DNA of 25,352 nucleotides from positions 1 to 25,352 of the IMG/VR virus record IMGVR_UViG_3300031566_014038; one strand, given 5' to 3'. A program made the translations under genes and the position numbers. The notes under the pieces are model-generated. The model was not told the DNA's origin, did no database searches, and saw only the letters and a program-made list of their open reading frames with translations. This document shows positions 2,971 through 25,158 of the stretch, piece after piece (position 1 is the stretch's first letter; the number at the start of each line of letters is the position of its first letter). Source of the stretch: a virus.

Positions 2971-3783
2971 CTAGAGGTGACAGATGGCGCAGCCCTCAAC
3001 TTCGTCCATCGTGGGCACGGGGTAGCGTTCCCCCAACCGCTCAATATCCCCGAGCGTCCTTCCGTCGACCCAGGTGAAGTCCCGGCCGTTCTTCTTGGTC
3101 TCGTATTGCCTCGCCCTCTCGAAGAGATCCGGATGGTTCTCGAGCAGGCCTTGCCATTCACCAATCTGCTGGTAGAAGCAGAAGTAGCAGCCAGAGCGCG
3201 ACCGCCAGCGGTAGTATTCTGGCAGGCCTAGACCGGATTCCTCGAGGATACATTTCACGTCCTCAAGGCAAATGGCGTCGTCTTTGAACGGGTACACCGG
3301 GATGATGTTGGGACGCTGTGAGAATTTCGGAGGCTTCTTCGGGCGATACCCTTGGCGGTCCTCATCGCCGCGAATGCCGATGTAGCTGAACGCGGTGTCG
3401 TTGCCAATGGACTCCTCGAATGGCTCGATCTTGAGTGCTCGTGTACACCAGCGACTTCTGGGATTCGGCAGAAAGCCTCCGTACATACTGAGCCACAGGT
3501 CAAACGGGTTGCGGCCGGGCTTCTCGGGAACGCGGAGTACGTCGAAGGCGTTCACCCGAACGATACTCTTCCCCAGCAATCCCTGCAGCCGCTCAAGGTA
3601 GTCATAGGTCTCCGGAAGCTCGCATCCCGTATCACAGAAAACATACTCCACCGGGATCTTGGGATAGGCTTGGCGGAGATAGACCGCCAAGGCCGCGGAG
3701 TCTTTCCCGCCCGAAATGCTGACGATGTGCCGCACCTCAGGCTGCTTCTCTATGGTTGCAATCGCTTCAACTAGCGCTGCCAT
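2971..3783 (-). CDS. sspD: SspD-like PAPS-reductase-family ATP pyrophosphatase of DNA phosphorothioation
   Basis: The protein has 270 residues. A PP-loop SGGKDS lies at residues 24-29, followed by the strand EYVFCDTG typical of the adenine-nucleotide alpha-hydrolase (PAPS reductase/DndC) fold. RWCTRALKIEP follows near 111-121. Cysteine pairs CYFC (near 199-202) and CAIC (near 265-268) could ligate a 4Fe-4S cluster, as in DndC. In Ssp systems this protein activates the DNA backbone with ATP so that sulfur from the desulfurase can be inserted. I chose the ATG at 3783; a GTG at 3795 is in the same frame. The start lies inside the 3' end of sspC, which implies translational coupling. The assignment rests on the motifs plus its place directly after SspA, SspB and SspC homologues. 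Confidence 0.85.
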   Translation of the reverse strand: MAALVEAIATIEKQPEVRHIVSISGGKDSAALAVYLRQAYPKIPVEYVFCDTGCELPETYDYLERLQGLLGKSIVRVNAFDVLRVPEKPGRNPFDLWLSMYGGFLPNPRSRWCTRALKIEPFEESIGNDTAFSYIGIRGDEDRQGYRPKKPPKFSQRPNIIPVYPFKDDAICLEDVKCILEESGLGLPEYYRWRSRSGCYFCFYQQIGEWQGLLENHPDLFERARQYETKKNGRDFTWVDGRTLGDIERLGERYPVPTMDEVEGCAICHL

Positions 3784-6700
3784 GCGGTTTCTCACTCAGA
3801 TGCCGTCTCAGCACCTCGTCCACAGCTCTTCTTGCCTCGTCTTCACCGGCCAACCTGACCAATTGCCTCAGGAGATAGTCCAGGCGCTGACGAATCACAT
3901 CACTCATGCCCTCCCAGTGACGGCGGTCTTCTCCATTCACCTTGGTGTCAAGTGCGGCCTCTTCGATCCTGTGTACCATGTCGCGGAGGCGGCTGTCAAA
4001 GGTTACTGCAGTGCCATCGTCCCAGCGACTTATCGGACGCCCAACGATCAGCAAAGACAGCGACTCGACCAAGAGCTCATCGATATCGTACTCGCTCTGC
4101 ATTCGACTGAGAAGGCCCTTGGCAACGGCAGGAACAGCTCCGGCCAGAACTGCTTCGGGAATGCTAGCCGACCAACGGGACGCGAGTTCGCGAAGGTCAC
4201 CTGCGCCTTCGGAAGAACCATGGGTTAACGCTTTGCGTATGGAGGCTGACGCCTTGTCCACGAAAGTCTTGGCTACGCCTTCCATCCCGCGCCTCATTTC
4301 GCGGATGGCATCGAGGACCTCATCAACCTTCTCAACCTGAACCCCGGCAATTGCAGGAAGATCCTGAAGCAACAGCTTGACCGGATCCTCGTCCTCTCGC
4401 AGCGCCTGCTGGAACTGCATCGCTTGGCCTGACAAGCTCTTCGTGGCCAAGGCGGACGACGGCAGCTGGAACTTCCATCCCTGAATCGCGTCGTAGCAGA
4501 GGCGGATCAGGTCATTCTCTGCCACGATGACGTCGGACACCGGGCTAAAGCAGCTGTGCAGCCTGCGTAGGTAGCGGAGTTCGTCCTCGCCCAAGGCTAG
4601 GACCGAGAGAGCGTAGGAGTCCGGATGGCGACATAGATCCTCGATGTCGTCAGGCATGACGTCCGTGACGTACCGGCCGTCCTTGGTCAGCGATACGACC
4701 CGCGAGAACGCCTTGAAACCAGCCGCAAACAGAATAGGCAGCAGGCCCTCTCTGACGCCATAAGGTGGTTCGCGCAGTTCCCTGAGTAAGTCAGCAGGTC
4801 TTTTCGGCTTCTCGCTGGGCTCGCCAAAGAAGGTCTGGAGCTTCTGCCATACCGCTGCGATGCCGCGCTCCAGTCCTTTGCAGGAGGGCGCGACATAGCC
4901 CCATCGACCCTCGCCCTCTCGATAGAGTCCGGTATGGACAAGCACAGTGCGAAACATGGAGTAGTCCGGGAAGTGCCCCCTTATCCCAAGGTTCTCTTGG
5001 CCATGTCTATCGAGGATCCCGAGCAAGAGCTTCTTCCTCGAATTGACAACTGTCCCCGAGGGTTTCCGCCTGACGACCAATTCGTTCCGGATCACTGGTG
5101 TCAAGGGGAACACCTGGTCAGCGATATCCGATAGAGTTCGGCGCAGTTCGCCTACAGTTCCTGCAGCCATCTCCTCTCCCTGCCAGAACCACGCCGGACC
5201 ATCCCTCCCGGGAATGAGCATCCCGTCAAGCATTCTGTGGAGGTGCGACCGTGCGTCGTCCATCATCTGCTGAAGTTGGGGCGCTACGAGCGGATCGCTG
5301 CCAACGAGGTCGCCATTGTGGACCATCTCGGAGAGGCAGAAGACCTCTAGGGCTGCATCGCGTGCCCGTAGAGGTCTGGCAGGCACCACCACAAGCAACC
5401 GTGGATCTGCGCGCCAACGTTTCGCTAGATTGCCGGCAAGCTTGAGTTGCTCGTGGTCCTCCGCTAGAAGATAGAGGATCTTGCTGTCACACCCCACCGG
5501 GATCGAAGCTTCCCGCTCGCCACGTGCAAGAGAGGCAAAGGCCTCTGGGGAAACGTACTCACCTTCCCAGTACCGACAGACGCCGCATCTACTGTTATGC
5601 TGCAGCGGCTTCCATGTCTTGGGGGGTGCCTCGCGTGTGAGGAACTCTACGAGGGCGAAGCTGCCAGCATGCCGGCTCTTCTCCTCCTCGAGTTTCCCGC
5701 GAAGGTCGAAATCTGTGCCGTGCCACACCGAAAGCTCATCATTATGCTTGCGATGGAGAAGCAAATTTCTTTCAATAAGCGCATCAATGGTGTCGTTCCA
5801 CGGCGCCTTGTCGTCAAGACCAGCCAAAGCCACCGTCACCATCTCCCGCCCAGCTCTAGCTCGTTCTCCGCTCGTCCCCAGACCCAGCAGACAGGCGGTC
5901 TTCAACACCTGGGCTTGCTTGGGGTCGTCGTGGACCTTCAGAAGGGCGCTCTGCGTCTCCAGCCACTGCTTGTACGTTCCCCCAACAGTAGTGTCAGCCC
6001 TCATGGCCGAAGAGAAGTAGTCATACAAGTCGGCCGCGGAGATGGGTCGAGTCATGTCCACCGAGTAAAGGAATGTAAAAAGGGTTCTTTCGTACTGGGC
6101 GACACGGGCGGATACCCTGGGCAGGAGGTAGAAGGCTATGGGTTCCAACGGATACGCTCGCCCGAGCATTTCGGCCAGTTGCGTCAGCGCCACGCCAGGG
6201 AAGAGGCCGAGATCGTCGCGGCACCGTCGGGCTATATCCAGGAATCGCTTCCTTGGCGGCCGCCCCACCTTGCCTCTGTTGGCTGCCACAACCTCGGACA
6301 CCAAGCGGTATACCTCTCGGCTATCGTCGATGTACTGGGTTTCCTGGAAGCGGCCCGAGATCTTCATCCACTCGGTGCGCACTGACTGCGGCATCTGCCC
6401 CGCATAGTGAAAGAGGGCCTGGTGAAGTGCGAGGCCCAAGGTGATTGGCAGATCACTCGATCTGGAGGCAAACTCGGCAAGTAGCTGAATGTCTGCCAGT
6501 TCAGAGGCACGACCGTGGCTCACCAAGGCCTCAATGTGCCGACCTGCCTCGTCCCACATAATGCTGATTCTATCCAAGCCACTTGCTCGACACTTCTGTT
6601 GGAGAACGGCGAGGAGGTTGACAGCCTGTTCGATAGAACCGGAAGGCAGTGCCCCAATGGTCCTCGCTTGGCGCCCCAGTTTCATTCTCCCCATGGCCTC

Positions 6701-7123
6701 TAGGACTGCTTCCTTGAGACGCATTGGCAAGTCGCTGCAGTAGCCATGGAGGGCCACAACAAGGCCCTTTCTCCCCTGTCGACGCCTACGTCGAGCAAAA
6801 CGGTGCAACTCAGGCGACACGCCCGCAAGCCGCCCTTCAATAGCCTTGAGCGTAGCCTGTGCAGACGCGCGGTTCTCTATGAGCTGCAGCAGATATGCAA
6901 GCGTTATCGACTTTCCCGAGCCATACGGAGCGACGATGAGAAAGGCGCGCTCCTCGGCTTGGGCAAGGAGGCTACGCACCAGAGCCACGCTCTTGCTTGT
7001 GGGGCGGAAGTGCGAGATTCTCTCTGGAGCACTTGCATCGTAGCAGAGGTTAATCGAACGCAGGACCCGCTCTGCCGAAAGGCCCCCATCACCGCCTGCG
7101 CGCCGACCCGCTCTATGCGGCAT
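3767..7123 (-). CDS. sspC: SspC-like large P-loop ATPase
   Basis: This is a 1118-residue protein. A Walker A motif APYGSGKS is at residues 65-72 and a Walker B-like strand ISIMWDEAG is near 186-194, so the ATPase domain occupies the N-terminal third. The rest is helical, with one CxxC pair in the segment CGVCRYWEGEY and no other motif that I recognise. SspC is the ATPase required, with SspB and SspD, for single-stranded phosphorothioate modification. Its length and position between a DUF4007 gene and a PP-loop gene match that role. The ATG at 7123 has a GGGGGAA ribosome site and overlaps the end of sspB by 11 bases. The TGA at 3767 lies within the start of sspD. The gene is full-length with no visible frameshift. 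Confidence 0.85.
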   Translation of the reverse strand: MPHRAGRRAGGDGGLSAERVLRSINLCYDASAPERISHFRPTSKSVALVRSLLAQAEERAFLIVAPYGSGKSITLAYLLQLIENRASAQATLKAIEGRLAGVSPELHRFARRRRRQGRKGLVVALHGYCSDLPMRLKEAVLEAMGRMKLGRQARTIGALPSGSIEQAVNLLAVLQQKCRASGLDRISIMWDEAGRHIEALVSHGRASELADIQLLAEFASRSSDLPITLGLALHQALFHYAGQMPQSVRTEWMKISGRFQETQYIDDSREVYRLVSEVVAANRGKVGRPPRKRFLDIARRCRDDLGLFPGVALTQLAEMLGRAYPLEPIAFYLLPRVSARVAQYERTLFTFLYSVDMTRPISAADLYDYFSSAMRADTTVGGTYKQWLETQSALLKVHDDPKQAQVLKTACLLGLGTSGERARAGREMVTVALAGLDDKAPWNDTIDALIERNLLLHRKHNDELSVWHGTDFDLRGKLEEEKSRHAGSFALVEFLTREAPPKTWKPLQHNSRCGVCRYWEGEYVSPEAFASLARGEREASIPVGCDSKILYLLAEDHEQLKLAGNLAKRWRADPRLLVVVPARPLRARDAALEVFCLSEMVHNGDLVGSDPLVAPQLQQMMDDARSHLHRMLDGMLIPGRDGPAWFWQGEEMAAGTVGELRRTLSDIADQVFPLTPVIRNELVVRRKPSGTVVNSRKKLLLGILDRHGQENLGIRGHFPDYSMFRTVLVHTGLYREGEGRWGYVAPSCKGLERGIAAVWQKLQTFFGEPSEKPKRPADLLRELREPPYGVREGLLPILFAAGFKAFSRVVSLTKDGRYVTDVMPDDIEDLCRHPDSYALSVLALGEDELRYLRRLHSCFSPVSDVIVAENDLIRLCYDAIQGWKFQLPSSALATKSLSGQAMQFQQALREDEDPVKLLLQDLPAIAGVQVEKVDEVLDAIREMRRGMEGVAKTFVDKASASIRKALTHGSSEGAGDLRELASRWSASIPEAVLAGAVPAVAKGLLSRMQSEYDIDELLVESLSLLIVGRPISRWDDGTAVTFDSRLRDMVHRIEEAALDTKVNGEDRRHWEGMSDVIRQRLDYLLRQLVRLAGEDEARRAVDEVLRRHLSEKPHGSAS

Positions 7124-8018
7124 GCTGTTCCCCCATATGGTGTGCCCGGTCGTAGTAGCGCTGGGCCCACTGCACCGGAGTGCGAGGCATGAAGCGGATC
7201 ACGCGTTCACCCGCGTGGCCTGCGACTTCAATTTCACCGCTGCTGTGTTCCTCAGCCTGAAGTGCCGAATCGAGCACTCCCTCCGGGCTCAAAGCAAAGG
7301 CCTTCCCAGGCCCGCCAGCCACCCGCGCAGCCTCTGACACACGGACATCCCTCCGCGCACCGCCTTCTTGGCCATCCGCAAAGGCAGCCGACAAGCAGTA
7401 GCCCAAGACCTCCGGCTCAATACTCCTAGGGCCTTGATGGGCTTGGTAGTAGCCAGATGTCTGGAAGTGGCTCATCAGGTCCAATTCCTGGAAGGGGCAG
7501 TCGCGAGATTCCTCGGGGTCCAGCCTCTCACCTGGAATGGACCGAGCGTAGCTCGCCAGAAGGCAAGCCACGTCTCTTTGGAGCGTCGTATGGCTCGGCA
7601 TCCGCCTAGCCTGGGCTTGCAGAAAGCGACGTAGATTCTCGACTACAGTGGCCCGCTCGAATCGCTGCAGACCAAAAGAATTGAAGAACCAGAACCAAGT
7701 ATCAGCGTACACCGGCTCGCCGAGGAGGTTAATATGCAGGAACCACCATGTGCCGGGCTCGGCGAAGTAGATATCCTGCTCTGCGACGCAGTGGCCGAAG
7801 TCGGTAACATTGAGATGTCCCCGGCGAGAGGGATCGGGCATGGCAAGTTTCGTGGCTTGGAGCCAATGCTTGATTGACCGGGCCATGTTTTTCCCAACCC
7901 CCAAGTAGTCTGCCGCATGCTTCGAGTGGAACTCCTCAGGGGCCCCCAACAACAATGCTAAGCCTTTATGTAGCCACCCATCTCGGACCGGAAATGTCTC
8001 GTGCCCCGAAAAACGCAC
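7113..8018 (-). CDS. sspB: SspB-like DUF4007 protein
   Basis: This 301-residue protein opens with RFSGHETFPVRDGWLHKG, the diagnostic start of the DUF4007 family. A LGVGKNMARSIKHWL helix-turn-helix-like segment lies near residues 40-55. SspB is the DUF4007 member of the Ssp phosphorothioation system and has been described as a DNA-nicking component that opens the strand for sulfur insertion. The GTG start at 8018 has a strong purine-rich ribosome site (GGAGTGAGGTG) and lies 2 bases after the sspA stop. The 3' end overlaps sspC by 11 bases. These tight junctions mark a coupled operon. I could not place nuclease residues by eye, so the enzymatic role comes from family knowledge. Confidence 0.87.
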   Translation of the reverse strand: MRFSGHETFPVRDGWLHKGLALLLGAPEEFHSKHAADYLGVGKNMARSIKHWLQATKLAMPDPSRRGHLNVTDFGHCVAEQDIYFAEPGTWWFLHINLLGEPVYADTWFWFFNSFGLQRFERATVVENLRRFLQAQARRMPSHTTLQRDVACLLASYARSIPGERLDPEESRDCPFQELDLMSHFQTSGYYQAHQGPRSIEPEVLGYCLSAAFADGQEGGARRDVRVSEAARVAGGPGKAFALSPEGVLDSALQAEEHSSGEIEVAGHAGERVIRFMPRTPVQWAQRYYDRAHHMGEQHAA

Positions 8019-8020
8019 CG

Positions 8021-9196
8021 TTACACCTCACTCCTTTGGCGGGCTAGCGAGCGCGAACGCGCCGCAATAAGCTCATGGACACGGCCAATAGTCTCCACCG
8101 CGACATCGACGTCGAGGTTGCTATTCAGCTCCGAGAAGCTAAACCTGATGCTAGCATAGGCGTCCTCCTCACTTAGCCCCATCGCCCTGAGGACGCGCGA
8201 GGGCTCGGGCCGCATCGATTCACAAGCGGAGCCCTGAGAGCAGGAGATCCCCTCAAGCCCCAGCTGCGCCACCATCGCTTCGCCGTCGATTCCTGCAAAG
8301 AGCACGTTCGACGTATTGCAGATGCGATCTGCCCCCCCGCCATTGATCACTGCGCTGGGAATGCGCTGCAGCAACTGTTGTTCGAACTCGTCTCGGAGTC
8401 GTTGCATCGCGGCAGAAACCTCGGCGAGTCGTGCAGAACGCAATCGAGCTGCGCAGCCCATCCCGGCGATGCCAAGGATGTTCTCCGTGCCAGGCCTAAG
8501 CCCAGCTTCCTGTCCACCACCGAAGAAGAGTGGCCCGAACCGACGAGGGGAGCGAACGTAGAGGGCACCCACACCTGCCGGTCCATGCCACTTGTGGGCG
8601 GTTAGGGTGAGAAAATCGGCAGGAAGCTCGTGGAGGTCAATGGGTAGCTTCCCGACAGCCTGAGCGGCATCGGTGTGGAAAAGCACACCTCTTCGCCGAC
8701 ATTCCTCGGCAATGGCCTGGATAGGCTGAACGACGCCGGTCTCATTGTTGGCCCATTGAATACTTACCAGCGTGGTTGGCCGCTGCAGGGACGCTGCCAG
8801 ATCAACAACGTTTACCCGACCGCAGACATCAGCTGGTAGCAGGTCGACGGTCACCCCAATATCTGCCAAGGCGTCGCACGTCCGCAAGATCGACGCATGT
8901 TCGATGGGAGACGTCAGGATCCTGTTGGCCGTGGCTACCTCCCTGCGCGCCAGCGCCTGCAGGACCCAACTGTTCGCTTCGGTGCCTCCGCTCGTGAAGT
9001 AGAGACTGCCAGGATCACAGCCAATGAGCTCCGCAAGCGCGGCACGCGAGTCTCGCAAAACCGCTCGAGCTCTATCGCCAGATGGCTGCGAGCTCGACGG
9101 GTTGGACGCGTCCCCTTGCGCGGCCGCAATGACAGCTTCGCAGACCTCCGGAAGCAGCTTCGTTGTCGAGTTGTTGTCCAAATATACTTCATGCAC
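8021..9196 (-). CDS. sspA: SspA/DndA-like cysteine desulfurase
   Basis: This is a class V aminotransferase-fold PLP enzyme of 391 residues. It opens with VYLDNNSTT and continues with TSGGTEAN, SPIEHAS (PLP-stacking His near 100), WANNETG and FHTDAAQAVGK. AHKWHGP supplies the PLP lysine near residue 202, followed by GGGQEAGLRPGTEN. The catalytic cysteine is near 325 in QGSACES. The enzyme removes sulfur from L-cysteine as a persulfide for the phosphorothioation machinery. I chose the GTG at 9196 because AGGAAGG lies 10 bases upstream; the in-frame TTG at 9220 has no ribosome site. It is the first structural gene of the operon, 36 bases after the regulator. Motifs alone would also fit IscS/NifS; the operon gives the specific role. 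Confidence 0.9.
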   Translation of the reverse strand: MHEVYLDNNSTTKLLPEVCEAVIAAAQGDASNPSSSQPSGDRARAVLRDSRAALAELIGCDPGSLYFTSGGTEANSWVLQALARREVATANRILTSPIEHASILRTCDALADIGVTVDLLPADVCGRVNVVDLAASLQRPTTLVSIQWANNETGVVQPIQAIAEECRRRGVLFHTDAAQAVGKLPIDLHELPADFLTLTAHKWHGPAGVGALYVRSPRRFGPLFFGGGQEAGLRPGTENILGIAGMGCAARLRSARLAEVSAAMQRLRDEFEQQLLQRIPSAVINGGGADRICNTSNVLFAGIDGEAMVAQLGLEGISCSQGSACESMRPEPSRVLRAMGLSEEDAYASIRFSFSELNSNLDVDVAVETIGRVHELIAARSRSLARQRSEV

Positions 9197-9232
9197 AGAG
9201 ATTCTGCCTTCCTGTGTCAAACAAGGGCTCTG

Positions 9233-9896: not shown

Positions 9897-9901
9897 CAAC
9901 C

Positions 9902-11198: not shown

Positions 11199-12137
11199 TC
11201 ACGTGTCGTCGCATTCCGTCAGGTCCGTGATGGCGGTCCATGCGGCGTCCTCATCTTCGGTCTCGATGACCCGCACGCTGGTCTTCTTGTACTGGAACTC
11301 GTGCGCGGTGGTGTCATAGCGCAGGCTGGTGAGAACCGCGACGAGGTCGGTCTTCGGCACCTCCTCGACCGCCTCGAGGAGTTGCAGGTCCCCCTGGGCG
11401 TCGTACCAGGCGGTGCCCGGCGAATCCGCGCCCGGCTCGACGTACTCGGTGTGCGCAAAGCGCGGCCGCAGGGGCGAAAGGGCCGTGGCGAGTTCCGCGC
11501 CGAGAAGGTCCTTGACCGTGTAGGTGAACGTGCAGTCGGTCGCGGCGTCTCCGGCCACCCCGCCGTCTTTCGTGACCAGCACGGCAAACAGGCTGCCGAG
11601 CGAGTCGGGGGGCACGCCGAGTTTGACCACGGCCCATTTCTCGCCCGTGCCGGACTCCTTCCAGAGGATGAAGGCAGCCCCGCTCACGCCGCTCTTGAGA
11701 CTTCCGGCCTGGCCGTCGTTCACGTCGGCGCAGGGGTGGTCCTCGTCCTCGACGCTGACCTTCACAGGACAGACGCCCTGGACGCACGCGAGGCCGATGG
11801 CGCCCGCCTTCAGCGGCTCAAGGAGGATAGCGAACCTGCCCGCGTGGTCGGCTTCGGTGGGCAGGACGCCTTTGAGGGCGACTTGGTTCTTGAAACCGTC
11901 CTCGTTGTCGGTGGGCGTGAAGATCGGCGCATCGATGCCCAGGATATCGAACCGCTCGCGATCCGCGCCGCTTGCGTTCTTCACCGGCACGATGCCGCCA
12001 GGACGGAGTTCCGCAACGGGCGCACCTGCCACGTTCTGCTGCCGGGCCAGGTGGTCACGGGCGGCGTCGATGAAGGCGTTGTGGGTGCGTGCCGGGATCT
12101 CCAGTGGGTCGCCGGACTTGACTTTCTGCAGGCTCAC
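11199..12137 (-). CDS. Distal tail protein of the prophage, unknown function
   Basis: This 312-residue protein opens with SLQKVKSGDPLEIPARTHNAFIDAARDH, an N-terminus I have seen on tail-end phage proteins of environmental bacteria. A long beta-rich body without membrane segments follows (strands such as FAILLEPLKAGAIGLA, and a C-terminal VRVIETEDEDAAW). It starts with GTG at 12137 after an unusual G-only ribosome site (GGGGGGG about 8 bases upstream). Its 5' side faces the divergent nuclease gene, so the late transcript must cross that gene in antisense. A baseplate, fibre or adhesin-anchoring role is inferred only from its position after the tape measure. Confidence 0.6.
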   Translation of the reverse strand: MSLQKVKSGDPLEIPARTHNAFIDAARDHLARQQNVAGAPVAELRPGGIVPVKNASGADRERFDILGIDAPIFTPTDNEDGFKNQVALKGVLPTEADHAGRFAILLEPLKAGAIGLACVQGVCPVKVSVEDEDHPCADVNDGQAGSLKSGVSGAAFILWKESGTGEKWAVVKLGVPPDSLGSLFAVLVTKDGGVAGDAATDCTFTYTVKDLLGAELATALSPLRPRFAHTEYVEPGADSPGTAWYDAQGDLQLLEAVEEVPKTDLVAVLTSLRYDTTAHEFQYKKTSVRVIETEDEDAAWTAITDLTECDDT

Positions 12138-12160
12138 TCGCCATCCCCCCCAGCACTCGC

Positions 12161-12250
12161 TATACTACGCATGTTCAACAAGCCTTTAACGCTGGGAGTG
12201 TCCGTGCTGAAGACGCTGAGCATCCGTGCGGCAAGGAGGAGGGAGGAGCC
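12161..12250 (+). promoter_or_regulatory. Promoter element and ribosome site for the GIY-YIG cargo gene
   Basis: A TATACT -10-like hexamer is at 12161-12166, with no good -35 box at the right distance. A very purine-rich ribosome site (AAGGAGGAGGGAGGAG) ends 2 bases before the ATG at 12251. The gene is therefore likely expressed from its own promoter, independently of the opposing late operon. Confidence 0.4.
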
Positions 12251-12985
12251 ATGATCAAGAGGCTCCCTTCGTGCGTCACTCGCGAACTGGGCTACTACGT
12301 CTACCTGTACGTCGACCCCGAGACCGACGAGGTGTTCTACGTCGGCAAGGGGAAAGGCAACCGCTTGCTCTGTCACGTAGACGGGCGAGGCAAAACCCCT
12401 CACGGCGCCAAGATTCGGGGGCTCCGCAAGCGCGGGCTGGAACCTCGCGTAGAGGTCCTCATCCACGGCCTGAAGGACGAGAAGGCGGCACTGGCTGTTG
12501 AGATGGCGGCGATTGACCTCGTCGGCCTCGACCGGCTGTCTAACCGTGTTCACGGACATCACAGTTCCCGCCAGGGCCGCATGTCCCTCGACCAGGTGCT
12601 CTCGCTCTACCAGCGGAAGCCGGCCCGGATCACCGAACCCGTGATGCTCATCCGGATCAGCCGTATGTACCATTATGGGATCTCGGAAGCCGAACTCTAC
12701 GACGCCACCCGCGGCGTGTGGGTCGTCGGAACCAGAAGAGAGAAAGCCCGATATGCCCTTGCCGTGTACCGGGACATCGTCCGCGAGGTCTACGCCATAT
12801 CGCAGTGGTTGCGGTCCGGTTCCACCTTCAACGCGTGGCACCATCAGGGCCATCCGATGAAAGGCCGGTGGGAGTTCGTCGGAACAGTTGCACTGGATCC
12901 TGTCCGAAGGAAGTACCTCGGGCGCTCCGTCGACGGATACTTCAGCGAGCGGAGCCGGAACCCGATCCAGTACGTCAACTGCTGA
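12251..12985 (+). CDS. LEM-3-like GIY-YIG nuclease, prophage cargo gene
   Basis: The 244-residue protein has an N-terminal GIY-YIG nuclease domain. YYVYLY (15-20) and FYVGKGKGNR (29-38) form the core strands, Glu84 in ALAVEMAAIDLVG is the expected metal-binding residue, and LSNRVHGHH near 97-104 closes the domain. The spacing fits the LEM-3-like branch, which cuts DNA. Residues about 125-200 form a second domain (RISRMYHYGISEAELYDATRG, then a segment that includes ARYALAVYRDIVREVY), which I take for a DNA- or substrate-binding module. The gene lies on the plus strand between two minus-strand tail genes. It has its own ribosome site and leaves only 26 bases to the convergent gene. That is the usual look of a phage moron. 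It may act in exclusion of other phages, host DNA attack or repair. Confidence 0.8.
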   Translation: MIKRLPSCVTRELGYYVYLYVDPETDEVFYVGKGKGNRLLCHVDGRGKTPHGAKIRGLRKRGLEPRVEVLIHGLKDEKAALAVEMAAIDLVGLDRLSNRVHGHHSSRQGRMSLDQVLSLYQRKPARITEPVMLIRISRMYHYGISEAELYDATRGVWVVGTRREKARYALAVYRDIVREVYAISQWLRSGSTFNAWHHQGHPMKGRWEFVGTVALDPVRRKYLGRSVDGYFSERSRNPIQYVNC

Positions 12986-13011
12986 GCCGCAGCACCTGCG
13001 ATTCTCCTGTC

Positions 13012-13836
13012 TCATGAGCCAATCCCCAAGCCCACAAAGTCCCCTTCCTCGTACACCTTCTCCACGTGCACGGACGTGGGCCGCTTGACGAGCTCCTTCG
13101 CGTCGTCATCCTCAGCGTCGGCGTAGCGGACCCACATGTACTCCCACCCCTTCTTCGAGATGCCGGTGATGTCGCCGACCGTCAGGCCCGTCCGGTTCGG
13201 GCTGGCCGCAAAACGGAACGTGATCTCCCAGTCCGTTTCGCCACGCTTCGACCCGGACGCACCGAGGAACAGGACCTCGCCCGCCTCAAAGCCCTTGAAC
13301 GCGCCCGAGTTAACCTTGCCGGTCAGGTTGAAGAGCGTCGCCTTGTAGGCGGGCGTCACGACCGAGTCGGCCAGGTAATGCGTCTCGGAGAACTGGTAGA
13401 TCGGGACGGTGATATCCACGCCCTCGACCGAGTCGTGTGTGACGCCGATCGCGCCCTTGAAGTTCGGGGCCGTCTTGCCCGGCGGCGCGTAACTGCCCGC
13501 GGTCTGGAGGCTCTGGGTGATATGCTGCGTCCCGCCGCCCGTGTCGAAGTTGAACACGGACTCGCCGGTCTCCGGCGGCGTGTTGTTCACACGGCCGTAT
13601 CGGACCGTGCCGTCCCAGATACAGTCGTCGGGACTCCCGGTATCGACGTGGACCGGTTCGACGCCCCAGGTCTGCCGGACGAGGTCACCGTGCGTCGTGG
13701 GAGCCTCGGACGCCAGCGCCGCCTTCGCTGCAGCATCGTCGGCCGTCCCGCGGACGGTGTAGAGGAGTTCGGCTGAGGCGTCCTGGCCGTCCGAGGACGG
13801 GCGGCTGTCGGGCTTTTCGGTAACGGTGATGGCCAT
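13012..13836 (-). CDS. Tail protein downstream of the tape measure, unknown function
   Basis: The protein has 274 residues. The N-terminal segment (LLYTVRGTADDAAAKAAL) is followed by a beta-rich body with THGDLVRQTWGVEPVHVD, FNFDTGGGTQHITQSL and RGETDWEITFRFAASPNR. There are no membrane helices. Its position directly after the tape measure is where siphoviruses encode the distal tail or baseplate hub protein, and the beta-rich make-up agrees, but I cannot name the family. ATG at 13836, 12 bases after the tape-measure stop. The 3' end faces the convergent nuclease gene with a 26-base gap lacking a clear terminator. Confidence 0.6.
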   Translation of the reverse strand: MAITVTEKPDSRPSSDGQDASAELLYTVRGTADDAAAKAALASEAPTTHGDLVRQTWGVEPVHVDTGSPDDCIWDGTVRYGRVNNTPPETGESVFNFDTGGGTQHITQSLQTAGSYAPPGKTAPNFKGAIGVTHDSVEGVDITVPIYQFSETHYLADSVVTPAYKATLFNLTGKVNSGAFKGFEAGEVLFLGASGSKRGETDWEITFRFAASPNRTGLTVGDITGISKKGWEYMWVRYADAEDDDAKELVKRPTSVHVEKVYEEGDFVGLGIGS

Positions 13837-13848
13837 GGCCGTCCTGTG

Positions 13849-16194
13849 CTAGCTGAAGGTCAGCCCGCCGACGCGGGTTTCCGTGACGAGTTTCTTGGTG
13901 TTCTGGGCGGTCTCCTCGGTCGCCTTGGCGGTCCGTTCGGCCACGCTGCCGGCACCGAGTCCGGCCACCGCCATGGCACTGAACGTGCCGGTGACGCTGA
14001 TGGTGCGCTCGGCCGTCTTCTTCAGCGTGTCACCCAGACCGGCCAGGCTGTCCTGGACCTTGCCTACGAGGCTCGCAGGTCCCTTGAGTTTGCCGGGGCC
14101 CTCGTCGGCGGCCTCACGGGCCTCGCGTTTCCTGCGTGCCTCGGCGATGGCAGCGCGCCACTCCTGGCGGGCCTGATCCAGTTCGGCCTGGGCCGCGGCC
14201 GTCCGAGTCCGAGCCTCCTCTTCCATGGCCCGCTTCTTCGCCTGGTGGGCCCGGCTGATCTCGGCCATCCCGGCCTCGTACTGCTCCTGCTCGTGCTCAC
14301 GGACCCGCTGACGGGCCCCCTCGAGCGTCTTCTGGCGACGCGCACCTTCCTCCTTGAGGTACTGACTCCCGTACTCGTACTGTTGCTGGACGGCACGATT
14401 GGCGGCCTGAGGGTCGAACGTCTCGTCGAACTTCCCTTTGAGGACGTTCCAGATCTTCGTCAATCGTGACTGGAGCCACAGCATCGCCCGGGCCACGGCG
14501 AAGACGTACCGGTCCCAGGCCTTGAGCATGAATGCGGCCGCCTCGACGGCCGCGATCTGGATGCCGTGCCAGACGGTCCGCGCGAGCGCCAACGTCCCGT
14601 AGAACGCGGCGTAGGCGACCGAGAGGAACCCATGCTTGAACTGCAGCCAGACGCGGAGGAGCCAGCCGACGCCTTTCTGCCAGGCGACCTTCAGCGTCAG
14701 CCACAGGATCCGAGCCGCGAGGCCGATGTCGCCGGCAGCCAGGGCGTCAGCGATGCCGCGGTACGCCTCGCCGGCAAACTCCCTCAGTTGACCGAACTTC
14801 TCCCCGAGCCATTTCAGGGCCTTCCCCGCCGCTCCGGTCGCATACAAGATGTATGCGCCGAGGGCGGCCACGGCCGCGATCACAAGACCGATGGGTGAGA
14901 CGAGGGCAGCCAGAACGGTGCCAAGTACGCCGATAGCCGTCCCCACACCTGTGACGATGGCTGCGATGCCGCCAAAGACCGTCGCCAGGGCCGAACCTGC
15001 CGCACCCACGACCACGAGCGCACCGCCCACCAGGCCGATGATGGCAACGACCTTCGCGGCAGCGACCACGAGGCCCTTGTTCCGGGCGATGAGGTCGGTG
15101 ACGAACGCAGCGTACCGCTTGATGGTGGCAGCCGCCTTCGAGAGCGGCTCGGCAAGCGATTCGCCTACCACCGACAGCGCCACGAGCCCCGCCTGTTTGA
15201 CCTGGGCGAAGGCGTGTGCGAGCGTGGCGGCCATCTTCTTGTAGGCGGTCTCGGTCGCCCCGGCTCCGGTCCTCATGGCGCCGATGTCCGCCAGAAAGCC
15301 TTCCATGTTCTTGAGCGCCGGGATGACGCCCCGCAGCGCCCGGGCGTTCGGGAACAGTTTGGCGATGGCGTCGGGCGAGAGGCGACTGATCTTCTCGAAG
15401 ACCCCGGCGAGGCCTTCGGTGTGGAGCGTCGCGGACGACATCTCAAAGCCCAGTTGCCTGGCCACGTCAGCCGCCTCTTTCGAGGGCTTCAGGAACGACA
15501 TGACGATCTGGTTAACGGCCGTGACGGCGTTCTCGGTCTTCACACCGTGGCGCGTGAGGGTGGCCAGGGCCGCGCCCAGTTCATCGAGGCCCACACCCGC
15601 GCTGGCGGCGGTGGATGCGACCATACCGATCTGCGGGGCGAGTTCGGCGAAGGTCGTCTTGCCGCGCTTGACCACGGAGAAGAGGAGGTCGGAGACAGCA
15701 CCCGCGTGCTCCGCCGCGAGGCCGTACGAGTTCAGGACCGTCGTGATGGCGTCGGCTGCCGTCTTCGTGTCCGTGAGCCCTGCCTTCGCTGCCCTGGAAG
15801 CAACGGCCAGGACCTCCAGGGCCTTCTCGGCGGGAATGCTGGCCGACAGGATGTCGTACAGTCCACCGGCCAGCGCCTCGGTCGATTCGCCGAACTCCAC
15901 CGCCATCGACCGGATGCCCTTCTTGAAGGCGTCCATGTGGTCAGCAGGCTTGTCGAGCATCGTGGCAACGTTGGCCATCTGCTGCTCGAAGTCGGCGTAG
16001 ACCTTGGCGCCGGCCACGAGCGGTGTAGCCATGACGGCGCTCGCCTTGACGAGGCGCGCACCGATGTTGCGGACGTTCGCGCCGAACGCCTTGAGGCGCC
16101 TGGAGGCCCGCTTCAGGCCGCGGACGAGCTTCGAATCGTGGGCGTACAGTTCGACGTAAGCCGCGCCCGCTCGGATACCGCGTGACGAGACCAT
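13849..16194 (-). CDS. Phage tail tape measure protein, TP901 type
   Basis: This is a 781-residue protein. The TP901-like tape measure core begins with ADFEQQMANVATMLDKP and continues through SIPAEKALEVLAVASRAAKAG and the GLDELGAALATLTRHGVKTENAVTA region, about residues 70-320. A run of hydrophobic Ala/Val/Gly-rich helices covers about 370-465. A long charged coiled coil follows, rich in Glu, Arg, Ala and Gln (about 590-715). The protein sets tail length and is injected ahead of the DNA. The ATG at 16194 lies 3 bases after the holin-like gene. At this length it predicts a tail of modest size, and it supports a siphovirus-type virion because no sheath gene is present. Confidence 0.92.
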   Translation of the reverse strand: MVSSRGIRAGAAYVELYAHDSKLVRGLKRASRRLKAFGANVRNIGARLVKASAVMATPLVAGAKVYADFEQQMANVATMLDKPADHMDAFKKGIRSMAVEFGESTEALAGGLYDILSASIPAEKALEVLAVASRAAKAGLTDTKTAADAITTVLNSYGLAAEHAGAVSDLLFSVVKRGKTTFAELAPQIGMVASTAASAGVGLDELGAALATLTRHGVKTENAVTAVNQIVMSFLKPSKEAADVARQLGFEMSSATLHTEGLAGVFEKISRLSPDAIAKLFPNARALRGVIPALKNMEGFLADIGAMRTGAGATETAYKKMAATLAHAFAQVKQAGLVALSVVGESLAEPLSKAAATIKRYAAFVTDLIARNKGLVVAAAKVVAIIGLVGGALVVVGAAGSALATVFGGIAAIVTGVGTAIGVLGTVLAALVSPIGLVIAAVAALGAYILYATGAAGKALKWLGEKFGQLREFAGEAYRGIADALAAGDIGLAARILWLTLKVAWQKGVGWLLRVWLQFKHGFLSVAYAAFYGTLALARTVWHGIQIAAVEAAAFMLKAWDRYVFAVARAMLWLQSRLTKIWNVLKGKFDETFDPQAANRAVQQQYEYGSQYLKEEGARRQKTLEGARQRVREHEQEQYEAGMAEISRAHQAKKRAMEEEARTRTAAAQAELDQARQEWRAAIAEARRKREAREAADEGPGKLKGPASLVGKVQDSLAGLGDTLKKTAERTISVTGTFSAMAVAGLGAGSVAERTAKATEETAQNTKKLVTETRVGGLTFS

Positions 16195-17650: not shown

Positions 17651-18091
17651 CTACGGCACCTCCATCCACTCGGGCGCGTTGTCGGCGTAGGTCGGCTTGA
17701 TGGTGACGCTGACGGTGATGGCCTCCTCCAGCGGTTCGTTCCGAGAGAAGTTCGTGACGGCCATCGTCGCCCGGAGCCCTTGAGTGCCGCTCGTGGCGAT
17801 GTCACCGTCCATGACGGCGAACTCGAGGGAGGTGTTGTCGAAGTACGCCTCCTGGATGGCCGTGAACCCCGCGTCGGCCGTGTCCCAGACCATCTCGAAC
17901 TCGACCGACCCGTCCTTCAGCGTGGCCGCGGTGGCACGCCAACCGTTGTTCGCGCGCGTGGTGACGTCCGCCTCACCCGTCTCCAGGTTCAGCGTCACGT
18001 CCTTGACGTTGTCGATCTCGGTCCACGTCGGCGTTTCGTAGGTGCCCGTGTTCTGGTACAGCCGCGCTTCCATTCCGAGTTTGAATCCCAT
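17651..18091 (-). CDS. Major tail tube protein
   Basis: This 146-residue beta-rich protein begins with GMEARLYQNTGTYETPTWTEIDNVKDVTL. It contains EVTTRANNGWR-like and GSVEFEMVWDT segments typical of the phage tail tube fold. It polymerises as hexameric rings around the tape measure. The ATG at 18091 has a GAGGAG site 6 bases upstream. Followed immediately by the two chaperone genes and then the tape measure, it matches the usual siphovirus order. Confidence 0.85.
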   Translation of the reverse strand: MGFKLGMEARLYQNTGTYETPTWTEIDNVKDVTLNLETGEADVTTRANNGWRATAATLKDGSVEFEMVWDTADAGFTAIQEAYFDNTSLEFAVMDGDIATSGTQGLRATMAVTNFSRNEPLEEAITVSVTIKPTYADNAPEWMEVP

Positions 18092-21608: not shown

Positions 21609-23729
21609 CTACGCCTCGCCCTTGTTTTTCACCCCGCCCTTCGGATCCTGCAGAGCGACCCCGAAATCATGGTAGCCCCGCATCTGGACACCCAGGACGT
21701 TGAAGTCCGCCTCGGCCGTCTCGATGGTCGGCGACTCCTGACCGTTGAGGAACGCGACCTCGATCACCGGCAGGTCGTTCGCGTCGGCCAGCAGGTACCA
21801 CGCCTTGTCGCTCGCGCCGGTGTAATGGGTGTTCGCCAGGTACCGGCTGACCTCCACCCGGAACTTGCCCTGGTGGGGGTTGGCGACCGGGTACTTGGTC
21901 GAGGCCGTCGTGTCACGCAGTTCCAGCGACTTGTAGAGCTGCGTGCCCATGGCCGACAGGGCCGTCGGCACCAGGACGATCTGCGGCATGATGCCGATGG
22001 GCTTGCCGTCCGAGTCCACCTGGTCGAGGAACGCCACCTCCGCCTTCGTCAGGCCGTCAATCGACAGGACCGTGTCGGTCCCCGTCAGGTAGTTCTTGTT
22101 GGCCGTCTTGAAGAACCCCGAGTTGGCGAGGAAGATCGTCCAGAACACGTCGTTGATCTTCAGGCCCGACCCACGGCCGAGTTTCCGGGGCACGGTGGTG
22201 ATGGCGCCGAGGTCGTCGTTGATGATGTCACGCCGGTCGACCGACAGGAGCAGGCCGTAGGTATCGGCCTTGTTCGCGTACTGTTCCTCTCCCAGCGTGC
22301 CGTGCTTGAGTTCCCCGCCTGGCGCGACCGGCTCGTACTGGTCCTTGCCGATCAGGCGGTAGGAGGTGACGGTCTTGAAGTCCGAGACGTTGCGGACGGC
22401 GCAGATGTTGCGCCACACGCGCTCGACGCTGAAGAACCCGTCCAGGAGGAACTTGTTGGCGACGTTCGACAGGATGCCGCCGATGTCGATGGTCGAGAAG
22501 GCGGCCGCCAGGTTCTGGCCGAAGGCGAACCGAAGGACCTCGCGGGTCGCTCGGAAGTTGCGGCCGGTGTACCCATTGGCCCACGCCGCCTCCAGCAACA
22601 GTTCCTGGAGGCCGATGCCGCCGCGGAACCGCTTGGCGGCCGCGTCGAGCGCCTGCTCGTCACAGTGGTCCTCGGGTTTCTGGAGACCGGCCGTCAGGAG
22701 ACAGGCGGCCTCGAGGACGGTGCCGTTGACACCGGCCTCCGGTACGTGGGCCGCCGGGGCCTTGGGACGCGAGGCCCGAAGGACCTCCAACTCGGTCTTC
22801 GTCTCGTCCCAGCCTTCCTCGATGGCCTTCGCCTCGATCTCCGGATGCCTGCCGGCGCAGGTCTTGCGGATCGTGGCCACGCGCTTCGTCTCAGTGGCCA
22901 GTTCCGCCCGCAGGTTCTCGACGGCCGCTTTCGCGTCCACCGCGCTTGGCGCGGCTTGCGTGACCTGCGGTTCGTCGGACCCGTCCGGGTCGGCCGGAGG
23001 CGGCTCCTCGCCGCCATCGTCACCTTCGCCGCCGGCCTGACTCGCCTCGATGGCCTCGTACGTGCCTTTGAGGTTCTCGGCCTGTTTCTCCGACAGGTCC
23101 GCCAGCGTGAAGCCCTGTGCTTCCACCCACTCTTCGAAGTTCATCGCAAACACCTCCGTGTTCTGTCGGGCCGCCTGGGCGGCCACCTTCGCACTCGTGT
23201 CCTCGTCCGCTCCCAATGCCACGAAACTCATCTCGCCGAGCGTCGCACGCCGGGCGACGTAGACCGGCCCGGAGAACTCGCGGCCGTTTGCGCGGGCCGT
23301 CTTACCCTCCGGCACGAACACGACCTTCTCGGCCCGGGCGCCGACCGACGCCTGCCAGGGAAAGCCGTTCTCGCTCGACTGGACCACCTCCTGTGCCACG
23401 CGGCCGGCGCCGGAGATGACACCGGTGACCTCGAGCGTGGTGTCGGTCTTCGTGATCCGGTCCGTGTGACCCACGATCAGGCTGCGGTTGTGGTCCTTGA
23501 GAATCGGCCGCGACTGTTTCGGGATCTTCAGGCCCTTCAGGTCCACGACCACCGGGTAGGGCCACCCAGCCAGGACCATCTCGCCGCCGGTGTAGGCCGT
23601 CATCGTGAACCGCCGCAGTTGCTGACCTTCTTCGGCGGCGGCCTCGATGGCCAGAGCACCCGCCTCGCCGCAGATCTCGAAGGTCGTCGGGACCGACTCA
23701 GGCAGCTTCACGGTTCGTTTCCGGCTCAT
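21609..23729 (-). CDS. Prohead protease-major capsid protein fusion
   Basis: This 706-residue protein joins two functions usually encoded separately. Residues 1 to about 190 are a U35-type prohead protease: LKDHNRSLIVGHTD contains the catalytic-type His80, QASVGA carries Ser128, and LGEMSFVALGADEDT closes the domain. A flexible acidic and proline-rich linker spans about 190-265, and a helical scaffold-like stretch follows to about 320. The rest is an HK97-fold major capsid protein (FSTIDIGGILSNVANKFLLDG, then YRLIGKDQYEPVAPGGELKH). Self-cleavage would release the capsid subunit during head maturation. The ATG at 23729 has AAGGA 8 bases upstream and overlaps the portal gene by 32 bases. Such fusions are known in temperate siphoviruses and myoviruses. 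Confidence 0.88.
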   Translation of the reverse strand: MSRKRTVKLPESVPTTFEICGEAGALAIEAAAEEGQQLRRFTMTAYTGGEMVLAGWPYPVVVDLKGLKIPKQSRPILKDHNRSLIVGHTDRITKTDTTLEVTGVISGAGRVAQEVVQSSENGFPWQASVGARAEKVVFVPEGKTARANGREFSGPVYVARRATLGEMSFVALGADEDTSAKVAAQAARQNTEVFAMNFEEWVEAQGFTLADLSEKQAENLKGTYEAIEASQAGGEGDDGGEEPPPADPDGSDEPQVTQAAPSAVDAKAAVENLRAELATETKRVATIRKTCAGRHPEIEAKAIEEGWDETKTELEVLRASRPKAPAAHVPEAGVNGTVLEAACLLTAGLQKPEDHCDEQALDAAAKRFRGGIGLQELLLEAAWANGYTGRNFRATREVLRFAFGQNLAAAFSTIDIGGILSNVANKFLLDGFFSVERVWRNICAVRNVSDFKTVTSYRLIGKDQYEPVAPGGELKHGTLGEEQYANKADTYGLLLSVDRRDIINDDLGAITTVPRKLGRGSGLKINDVFWTIFLANSGFFKTANKNYLTGTDTVLSIDGLTKAEVAFLDQVDSDGKPIGIMPQIVLVPTALSAMGTQLYKSLELRDTTASTKYPVANPHQGKFRVEVSRYLANTHYTGASDKAWYLLADANDLPVIEVAFLNGQESPTIETAEADFNVLGVQMRGYHDFGVALQDPKGGVKNKGEA

Positions 23730-25158
23730 CCTCGTCGTCCTTTTCTGCCACAGGCAGGGCCTCGGGTTCCGTCAGGCCCAGTTCCCGCATCAGTTCCTTC
23801 TCCTTGGCCCGTTGCCGGAGCTGCTCCTCCCAGTCCAGGCCCGCCTTCGCGTACTCAATCGCCAGCGTGGTCGTGTGGTTCGCAAGGCGGGTCGTCTGGG
23901 CCCTCGCTTCCTTCGCCGGGTCCACGTGCTCGTAGCCGTCCCAGAACCACTGGTGCGGGTACGCGCCTCGCTTGCGCAAGAGGAGCAGCGGGAGACTCAA
24001 CACGCGGGTCGCTTCCTGCATCCATGCCCCGAAGATGCGGTCCAGGGCGACCGCGCCGAGATGGGCCTGTTCCACGCGGACCGACTTGAAGTACGTCTGG
24101 TGGTCGAGGCGACCCGAAGCGTAGTTGTAGCCCGAGGAGTTGCCCGCCGCGACGTTGAACGGCATGTTCAGGCACCGGGCGATCTCGTTCAGGATCTGGT
24201 TCTTGAACTCCGCGTAGGTCGTCGCTGGCTGTTCGGCGTGGACCTGGGCCATCTTCCACCCGCCCGGCATCGTCATGAGCATCCGCTGTTCGAGTTCGAT
24301 GGCGTCCATCGGCTCGATGGGGTCGGCCTCGCCGTTCGGCGGCGCGTCGGTGTAGAGGACGCCGGCGAACTCGGCAGCCGTCTCGGCGGATGCGATGACG
24401 GCGAGGGTGAACCGGCGCAGTTGGGCAAACAGAGGCAGCGCCGGCATGATGTCCGGGATACCGCGCGACTGGCCCGGCCGGTCGGCACGGAACCAGTGAA
24501 TCATCGATTCGGCAGGGACCCGGTCGTATTTCATGCCGAGCGCGGCCTGTTTGCTGCCTGGATGGGCCTTGAGGACGTGGTACTCGCGCGGATTGCCGAA
24601 CCGGTCGAACACGATGCCGTCCACGGCGCCCTTCGCGTCGGGCTTCAGGTCCGGCGTGGCGACCTGGTCCGCCTCGATGAGGCGCAGGTCGAGTTTCACG
24701 GAGGACGGGAGTGCGTCGTTCGAGACGAGCATGGCGAACGCCTCGCCGTCCTCGGCCCGGGCCATCCGCATCGTCCGGAGTTTTTCGGCGAGACCCACGG
24801 CCCTCGACCACTCGGCGAACTCGCGTTCGATCCGGCGATTGGCTTCCGGGTCGTCCGTCAGCATCTGGAGGCGCGGTCCGGTGCCCACCAGGTCGTTCGC
24901 GAGCGTCAGGACGATGCCGCGGGCGTAGGAGTTGTTGGCGACCTCGTAGCGGGAACGGTTCCGCAGCGTCCGCCGAATCTGCGGGCTGTTGGCGACGTCG
25001 GCCGAGAGGCCGTCGGCGCTGGCCCAGTGGCGGCGGTTCTCGTCGGTCGTGGTGGCCGCATCGTAGCGGCCGCGCAGGAAACGGAAGAGGAGGCCCTGCC
25101 GGTCGCTCACACGAGCGGGCTTCGATGAAGAACGGATTCTCTTGAGCCAGTTGAACAA
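23698..25158 (-). CDS. Lambda-family phage portal protein
   Basis: This 486-residue protein matches lambda-type portals. WASADGLSADVANSPQIRRTLRNRSRYEVANNSYARGIVLTLANDLVGTGPRLQ is spread over residues 45-98, a conserved portal N-terminus. WFRADRPGQSRGIPDIMPAL lies in the middle, and EIARCLNMPFNVAAGNSSGYNYASGR comes later. It forms the dodecameric channel for DNA packaging and exit. It begins with TTG at 25158 preceded by GGGAG, 2 bases after the upstream stop. The C-terminus is acidic and overlaps the protease-capsid start. Full length for the family. Confidence 0.93.
   Translation of the reverse strand: MFNWLKRIRSSSKPARVSDRQGLLFRFLRGRYDAATTTDENRRHWASADGLSADVANSPQIRRTLRNRSRYEVANNSYARGIVLTLANDLVGTGPRLQMLTDDPEANRRIEREFAEWSRAVGLAEKLRTMRMARAEDGEAFAMLVSNDALPSSVKLDLRLIEADQVATPDLKPDAKGAVDGIVFDRFGNPREYHVLKAHPGSKQAALGMKYDRVPAESMIHWFRADRPGQSRGIPDIMPALPLFAQLRRFTLAVIASAETAAEFAGVLYTDAPPNGEADPIEPMDAIELEQRMLMTMPGGWKMAQVHAEQPATTYAEFKNQILNEIARCLNMPFNVAAGNSSGYNYASGRLDHQTYFKSVRVEQAHLGAVALDRIFGAWMQEATRVLSLPLLLLRKRGAYPHQWFWDGYEHVDPAKEARAQTTRLANHTTTLAIEYAKAGLDWEEQLRQRAKEKELMRELGLTEPEALPVAEKDDEDEPETNREAA

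Follow-up and report, generated by a model that had tools for sequence, protein, structure and literature searches.

What is a lone nuclease gene doing, in reverse orientation, among the tail genes of a phage? This question is raised by the virus record IMGVR_UViG_3300031566_014038, a stretch of 25,352 bases analysed here in full (hereafter the window). Family matches on its minus strand identify genes for a portal (23698-25158), a capsid/protease (21609-23729), a major tail protein (17651-18091) and a tail length tape measure protein (13849-16194; PF10145, E = 8.8e-30; PHROG 1533), followed on the same strand by the tail-module genes g13012 (13012-13836; 274 aa) and g11199 (11199-12137; 312 aa). 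Between these two lies an intact plus-strand gene (12251-12985) that reads from ATG to TGA and encodes 244 aa, matching the Pfam family PF22945 (LEM-3_GIY-YIG) over its GIY-YIG domain (29.4 bits against a cut-off of 27). The first-pass annotation had described a GIY-YIG nuclease at 12161-12985, inverted within the tail-tip genes and with its own strong ribosome site. The nuclease, its inversion and its end point stand; the start is moved to 12251, position 12161 being that of a TATACT -10-like box upstream. The gene does lie inside the tail module; "tip" is a reading of its position, and the flanks have no family match in Pfam or PHROG.

The ribosome sites are strong: the purine-rich AAGGAGG/GGGAGGAG at 12233-12248, within a long plus-strand Shine-Dalgarno-like tract that reads AAGGAGGAGGGAGGAG. 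Upstream, a promoter-like TCGCCA-17-TATACT (12138-12166, +) is a weak candidate defined by consensus match only (9/12 matches; one such site found against 0.2 expected). The nuclease gene is convergent with the neighbouring tail-module gene, and an antisense frame (12134-13015, -) was discarded as a shadow of high third-position GC. Comparison with a homologue on a second phage contig (L002), which is 64% identical and sits in the same slot in the same orientation, yielded differences of 65/56/144 by codon position, mostly at the third, with dN of 0.31, dS of 1.99 and dN/dS of ~0.16; purifying selection on the gene is thereby shown. These values, together with the intact same-slot homologue and full-length homologues spread over many phyla, indicate that the gene is more than a chance reading frame.

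To which family does the protein belong? By sequence comparison it is a full-length member of the CMoRE/PD-T4-3 family. The PADLOC model PD-T4-3 matched over the whole protein (E = 1.7e-38), PHROG 5356 covered it entirely (9.6e-50), and a phmmer search of the PDB gave only two significant matches, 9U75 (1.6e-27) and 9U7U (5.3e-27), over residues 2-241; both entries are titled as the PD-T4-3 5hmC-specific restriction endonuclease. Searching NCBIfam with the protein returned one meaningless match and nothing else. An AlphaFold2 model of the full protein (pLDDT 89) found CMoRE structures as its sole matches at E < 0.001 (VIA Z 17.0). CMoRE, identical with PD-T4-3 and described from E. coli O157:H7 and APEC O1 (PDB 9U75, 9U7U), is a single-gene type IV enzyme that degrades 5hmC/5ghmC DNA and protects E. 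coli from T-even phages; it carries the motif GIYxY-YIG, joins a nuclease at its N-terminus to a modification sensor at its C-terminus and acts as a tetramer (PMC12923530; native activity in PMC12409345). The window protein shares the full-length homology, the motif, the catalytic Arg, Glu and Asn, the sensor domain and the single-gene form. It stands alone in its slot, and chromosomal and plasmid homologues lie in neighbourhoods unrelated to each other; among 140 neighbours of chromosomal homologues, screened with PADLOC and Pfam, there was no recurrent partner gene (at most four members per family), as expected of a one-gene system. We therefore consider that the gene probably encodes a type IV (modification-dependent) restriction enzyme of this family, a one-gene system carried by the phage.

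The nuclease-domain part (12251-12565, +) carries GYYVY (14-18), YVG (30-32), R38, H42, E84 and N98. In an alignment of 121 homologous sequences, Y16, Y18, Y30, G32, R38, H42, E84 and N98 are kept in 120 or all 121, and Glu84 is the invariant catalytic glutamate (121/121). Against this conservation stand several differences from the tested E. coli enzymes: identity is 32-33%, the gene occupies a slot in the tail module of a phage that probably infects Planctomycetota, and the equivalent of L96 of the dimer interface is A87 (found in 26/121). The equivalent of V92 is conserved (V83). In addition, the window protein has Asp175 where 114/121 homologues have Gly. Copies of the E. coli enzyme also occur on contigs called viral.

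The second domain was correctly recognized in the first-pass annotation, which had called it uncharacterised; it corresponds to the CMoRE modification sensor (residues 120-244; 12608-12982, +; AlphaFold2 pLDDT 91), with W157, W186 and R206 invariant across the 121 sequences. Its profile matched CMoRE at 2.5e-27, and the domain folded alone superimposed on 9U75 with Z 16.5 and an rmsd of 2.3 over 121 residues. Below CMoRE, the VIA matches listed were YTH, EVE or ASCH domains with the exception of two DrmA entries, including Mmi1 YTH (Z 5.9), the modified-cytosine enzyme VcaM4I (Z 4.5) and a THYN1 5mC-DNA complex; their Z scores of 4.2-5.9 lie in the range of common arrangements and below proof of kinship, and redundant entries for YTH proteins are numerous in the PDB. 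Some of these rows carry a gene code only, and we take them to be EVE domains. A sequence link was dropped, as EVE, YTH and ASCH profiles matched none of 46 members and a PDB profile search gave no such match either. A PUA-like (YTH/EVE/ASCH) fold is thus a lead with weak scores from a predicted model. Liu et al. had reported the C-terminal domain of CMoRE to be without homologue in sequence or structure (PMC12923530). Enzymes such as the EVE-HNH protein VcaM4I (PMC7897488) similarly combine a modification sensor with a nuclease and show weak fold similarity, whereas the window sensor lacks a sequence-profile match to theirs. The three invariant residues may form a base pocket comparable to that of W82/Y130 in VcaM4I (PMC7897488) or W377/W428 in YTHDC1 (PMC6112328).

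The sensor proves to be portable, and recurs with GmrSD-type and PD-(D/E)XK-like nucleases as well as alone. Its profile matched the C-terminus of two actinobacterial frames of 1016 and 1076 aa (L298 and L299; G581, G505) that also contain GmrSD_C (PF07510; 6.5e-24 and 2.6e-23), and a protein of a Pimelobacter plasmid (L292:2510-4399) combines a tandem sensor pair with a PD-(D/E)XK-like domain (PDDEXK_4 at 2.1e-4, below its cut-off). In a scan of viral contigs with the domain profile, no sufficiently conserved stretch was available. A phage protein named PD-(D/E)XK nuclease (BFVD A0A8S5N646) likewise shows the sensor fold (TM 0.76, rmsd 1.8). One frame of 110 aa (L285:2337-2669) is a standalone sensor domain, and scanning with it found no relative; its scaffold was deposited as phage but by eye encodes a relaxase-like protein, and may therefore be some other mobile element. 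The same range of nuclease partners has been described for EVE domains, in EVE-GIY-YIG, EVE-PD-(D/E)XK and EVE-GmrSD fusions (PMC7641849). The weak PUA-like fold likeness and the recurrence of the sensor with other nucleases go beyond the published description of the family.

How would such an enzyme tell its target from ordinary DNA? In E. coli CMoRE, the active site is blocked by a lid, an insertion of 15 residues of which four in a row are acidic, and the window protein is without most of it: the loop after H42 (residues 43-54, VDGRGKTPHGAK; 12377-12412, +) is 8 residues shorter, and its remnant DGRGKTPHG is basic rather than acidic, with a net charge of +2. The acidic autoinhibitory loop is therefore missing here; it was described for "most" members and hence is not strictly defining. 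Removing the charge of the lid in the E. coli enzyme, by replacing the four acidic residues, led to cutting of ordinary DNA and to toxicity (PMC12923530), so that the window protein may tell its targets apart in another way. The same result lends itself to a reading in which a lid-less nuclease cuts ordinary DNA irrespective of modification, as a degrader or toxin for host takeover or abortive infection. We consider this unlikely. Short loops occur in 61/121 aligned sequences (a fraction biased by drawing the sample by similarity to the window), including chromosomal copies of many phyla that must tolerate them; the four-residue (4A) lid mutant still strongly preferred modified DNA (PMC12923530); and the sensor domain is fully conserved. 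The tree places the short-loop sequences together on one side of a strongly supported branch (100/99); the long acidic loop is restricted to a sub-branch in which the E. coli enzymes stand with some relatives from phages and plasmids. Absence of the lid is thus not specific to this phage. Within the loop, the window protein and its same-slot homologue have His51 at a position that is Lys in 118/121 sequences.

The genomic position was then considered on its own merits. The flanking gene g13012 has more than 100 viral relatives, and g11199 lies beside it in 95 of them. In 83 of these 95, at most 89 bases separate the two genes; two have ~195 bases with no evident gene; and the remaining 10 have an insert of 523-2764 bases. 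Among the products of the inserts are GNAT acetyltransferases, a DinB-family protein, glycosyltransferases, an HTH_3-type regulator and, judged by eye, a small membrane protein; several of the genes are on the opposite strand. The junction is a true moron slot, as the first-pass annotation had assumed, but it is not specifically one for defence: because most relatives leave it empty and the genes otherwise found there largely have nothing to do with defence, position by itself says little for a defensive role. The proposed defence by cleavage of invading DNA nevertheless remains the best reading, since the protein is a full-length PD-T4-3/CMoRE member and E. coli members protect against T-even phages. 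The nearest relative (L003), with tail proteins 74-97% identical to those of the window, has an empty site. Between the two carriers, identity is 64% for the nuclease, 58-64% for g13012 and 46% for g11199; the divergence of the nuclease is close to that of g13012 and smaller than that of g11199, a pattern better explained by long residence and loss elsewhere than by recent arrival. In a further record of the same tail group, a different, long-loop CMoRE homologue lies beside an integrase (L247/L250; G011, 44752-45465). Two separate copies of the tail module (L043 and L065) were seen on one 102-kb contig, IMGVR_UViG_3300048599_000897.

A slot that is occupied in one phage and precisely empty in its near relative, with the same slot used in a second carrier, is also what a free-standing homing endonuclease would leave behind if it cut the empty g13012/g11199 junction of co-infecting relatives and spread via repair. 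The GIY-YIG fold matches I-TevI (Z 8.7), and in the jumbo phages OBP and N1M2 the annotation of relatives reads "putative homing nuclease". Such homing is marginally less likely still than unspecific cutting. Over its full length the protein matches a restriction enzyme whose second domain senses modified bases and is not a sequence-specific DNA-binding domain, homologues occur on chromosomes and plasmids in unrelated neighbourhoods of many phyla, and the slot also takes unrelated, non-nuclease genes. Co-conversion of the flanks is not apparent, because g13012 is less alike between the carriers than between the window and the empty allele (74%). Homologues consistently placed in introns as homing endonucleases, which the first-pass annotation had named as evidence against its defence proposal, were not borne out: the gene interrupts nothing and has two intact neighbours, and a near relative has the empty site. 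Homologues in the jumbo phages Moabite, OBP and N1M2 and in 107-kb E. coli phage-plasmids (PHROG 5356) belong to the same two-domain family at 30-36% identity; they differ in genomic setting, in being annotated as homing endonuclease or hypothetical and, for the jumbo phages, in medium or long loops. The entries from OBP, N1M2 and Moabite (L086, L087 and L085) are named "putative homing nuclease" or "G-I-Y Y-I-G endonuclease", and are probably misnamed.

The flanking gene g13012 was found in 44/392 Planctomycetota genomes, often in multiple copies; three of them (G389, G402 and G409) hold up to six copies per genome, suggesting many related prophages or phage-derived elements there. The nearest chromosomal homologues of the nuclease are planctomycetal too (tree with weak support), and 5/23 related records contain an integrase. 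Together these observations suggest that the source is likely a temperate phage of Planctomycetota, with lysogeny deduced from the relatives with integrases. In Planctomycetota chromosomes the nuclease was not seen in the slot, copies and tail genes lying on different contigs or far apart, and no 5hmC phage of Planctomycetota was identified.

Beside the tail genes, the window also contains a complete SspABCD-like phosphorothioation cluster (2971-9220, -), composed of SspA (8021-9220), SspB (DUF4007; 7113-8018), SspC (3767-7123) and SspD (2971-3795), and a helicase partly like PbeA (1-1659). The G+C content of the cluster is 59% against 66% for the tail genes, and the nearest relative diverges from about window position 9900 on; the cluster may be cargo of the phage or flanking host DNA. 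An Ssp system requires a restriction effector, and with the complete cluster 3 kb away the nuclease could be that partner, reading the presence or absence of backbone sulphur. This is very improbable: the nuclease is on the other strand and in another module with tail genes between, the cluster is present in 0/80 tail relatives, SspD was not found in the record (a fragment) of the second nuclease carrier, and the known family members read base modifications. Equally improbable is a structure-specific repair or recombination nuclease of the UvrC/LEM-3 type for phage DNA processing, for although the GIY-YIG domain has the PF22945 label and a fold like that of UvrC (Z 7-8, within the Z 7-9 seen for I-TevI and UvrC nuclease domains), LEM, ankyrin and UvrC domains had no Pfam match in the protein, so that the "LEM-3-like" of the first-pass annotation is a domain-family label and does not make the protein a LEM-3/ANKLE1 nuclease, the C-terminal half matches the CMoRE sensor only, and presence among relatives is sporadic.

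Each of these four alternatives is thus less likely than a modification-dependent restriction enzyme, which would work as follows. Signals of its own would drive expression of the nuclease without dependence on the late tail operon, and a lysogen or an infected cell could thus carry it. Its C-terminal sensor would bind modified bases in DNA that a competing phage brings in, most likely 5-hydroxymethylcytosine or its glucosylated derivatives, although the bases read may differ at this level of identity. At least two subunits would then place GIY-YIG sites (Y16, Y18, Y30, R38, E84, N98) on both strands, cuts would fall near the modified sites and the rival genome would be destroyed, with unmodified host and self DNA spared. 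A precedent is HHPV4I of an archaeal virus, likewise a virus-encoded modification-dependent enzyme and proposed to exclude other viruses, which unlike the window protein is an SRA-wH-HNH enzyme that reads m6A (PMC10101028). A bolder extension, to which we give somewhat less than an even chance, holds that the sensor is a divergent PUA-like (YTH/EVE-like) reader swapped among GIY-YIG, GmrSD-type and PD-(D/E)XK nucleases, that Trp157, Trp186 and Arg206 form a base-flipping pocket distinct from the edge site seen with 5hm-dCTP, and that Planctomycetota phages use the lid-less form against modified competitors.

The family was already known, and the window gene adds a member to it; the wider points are that a large branch has lost the lid and that the sensor is mobile. 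The locus would be a case of a modification-dependent restriction enzyme lodged in a slot of a phage tail module, for which a relative supplies the exact empty counterpart. The lid proposed as a guard against self-damage is missing from a large branch of the family, and phage genes annotated as homing nucleases fall, probably misnamed, into a defence family. Should the sensor be a PUA-like reader that is mobile, as suggested by its recurrence with GmrSD-type and PD-(D/E)XK-like nucleases, it would provide a searchable marker for modification-dependent enzymes with new base specificities, some of which may be useful for DNA-modification mapping.
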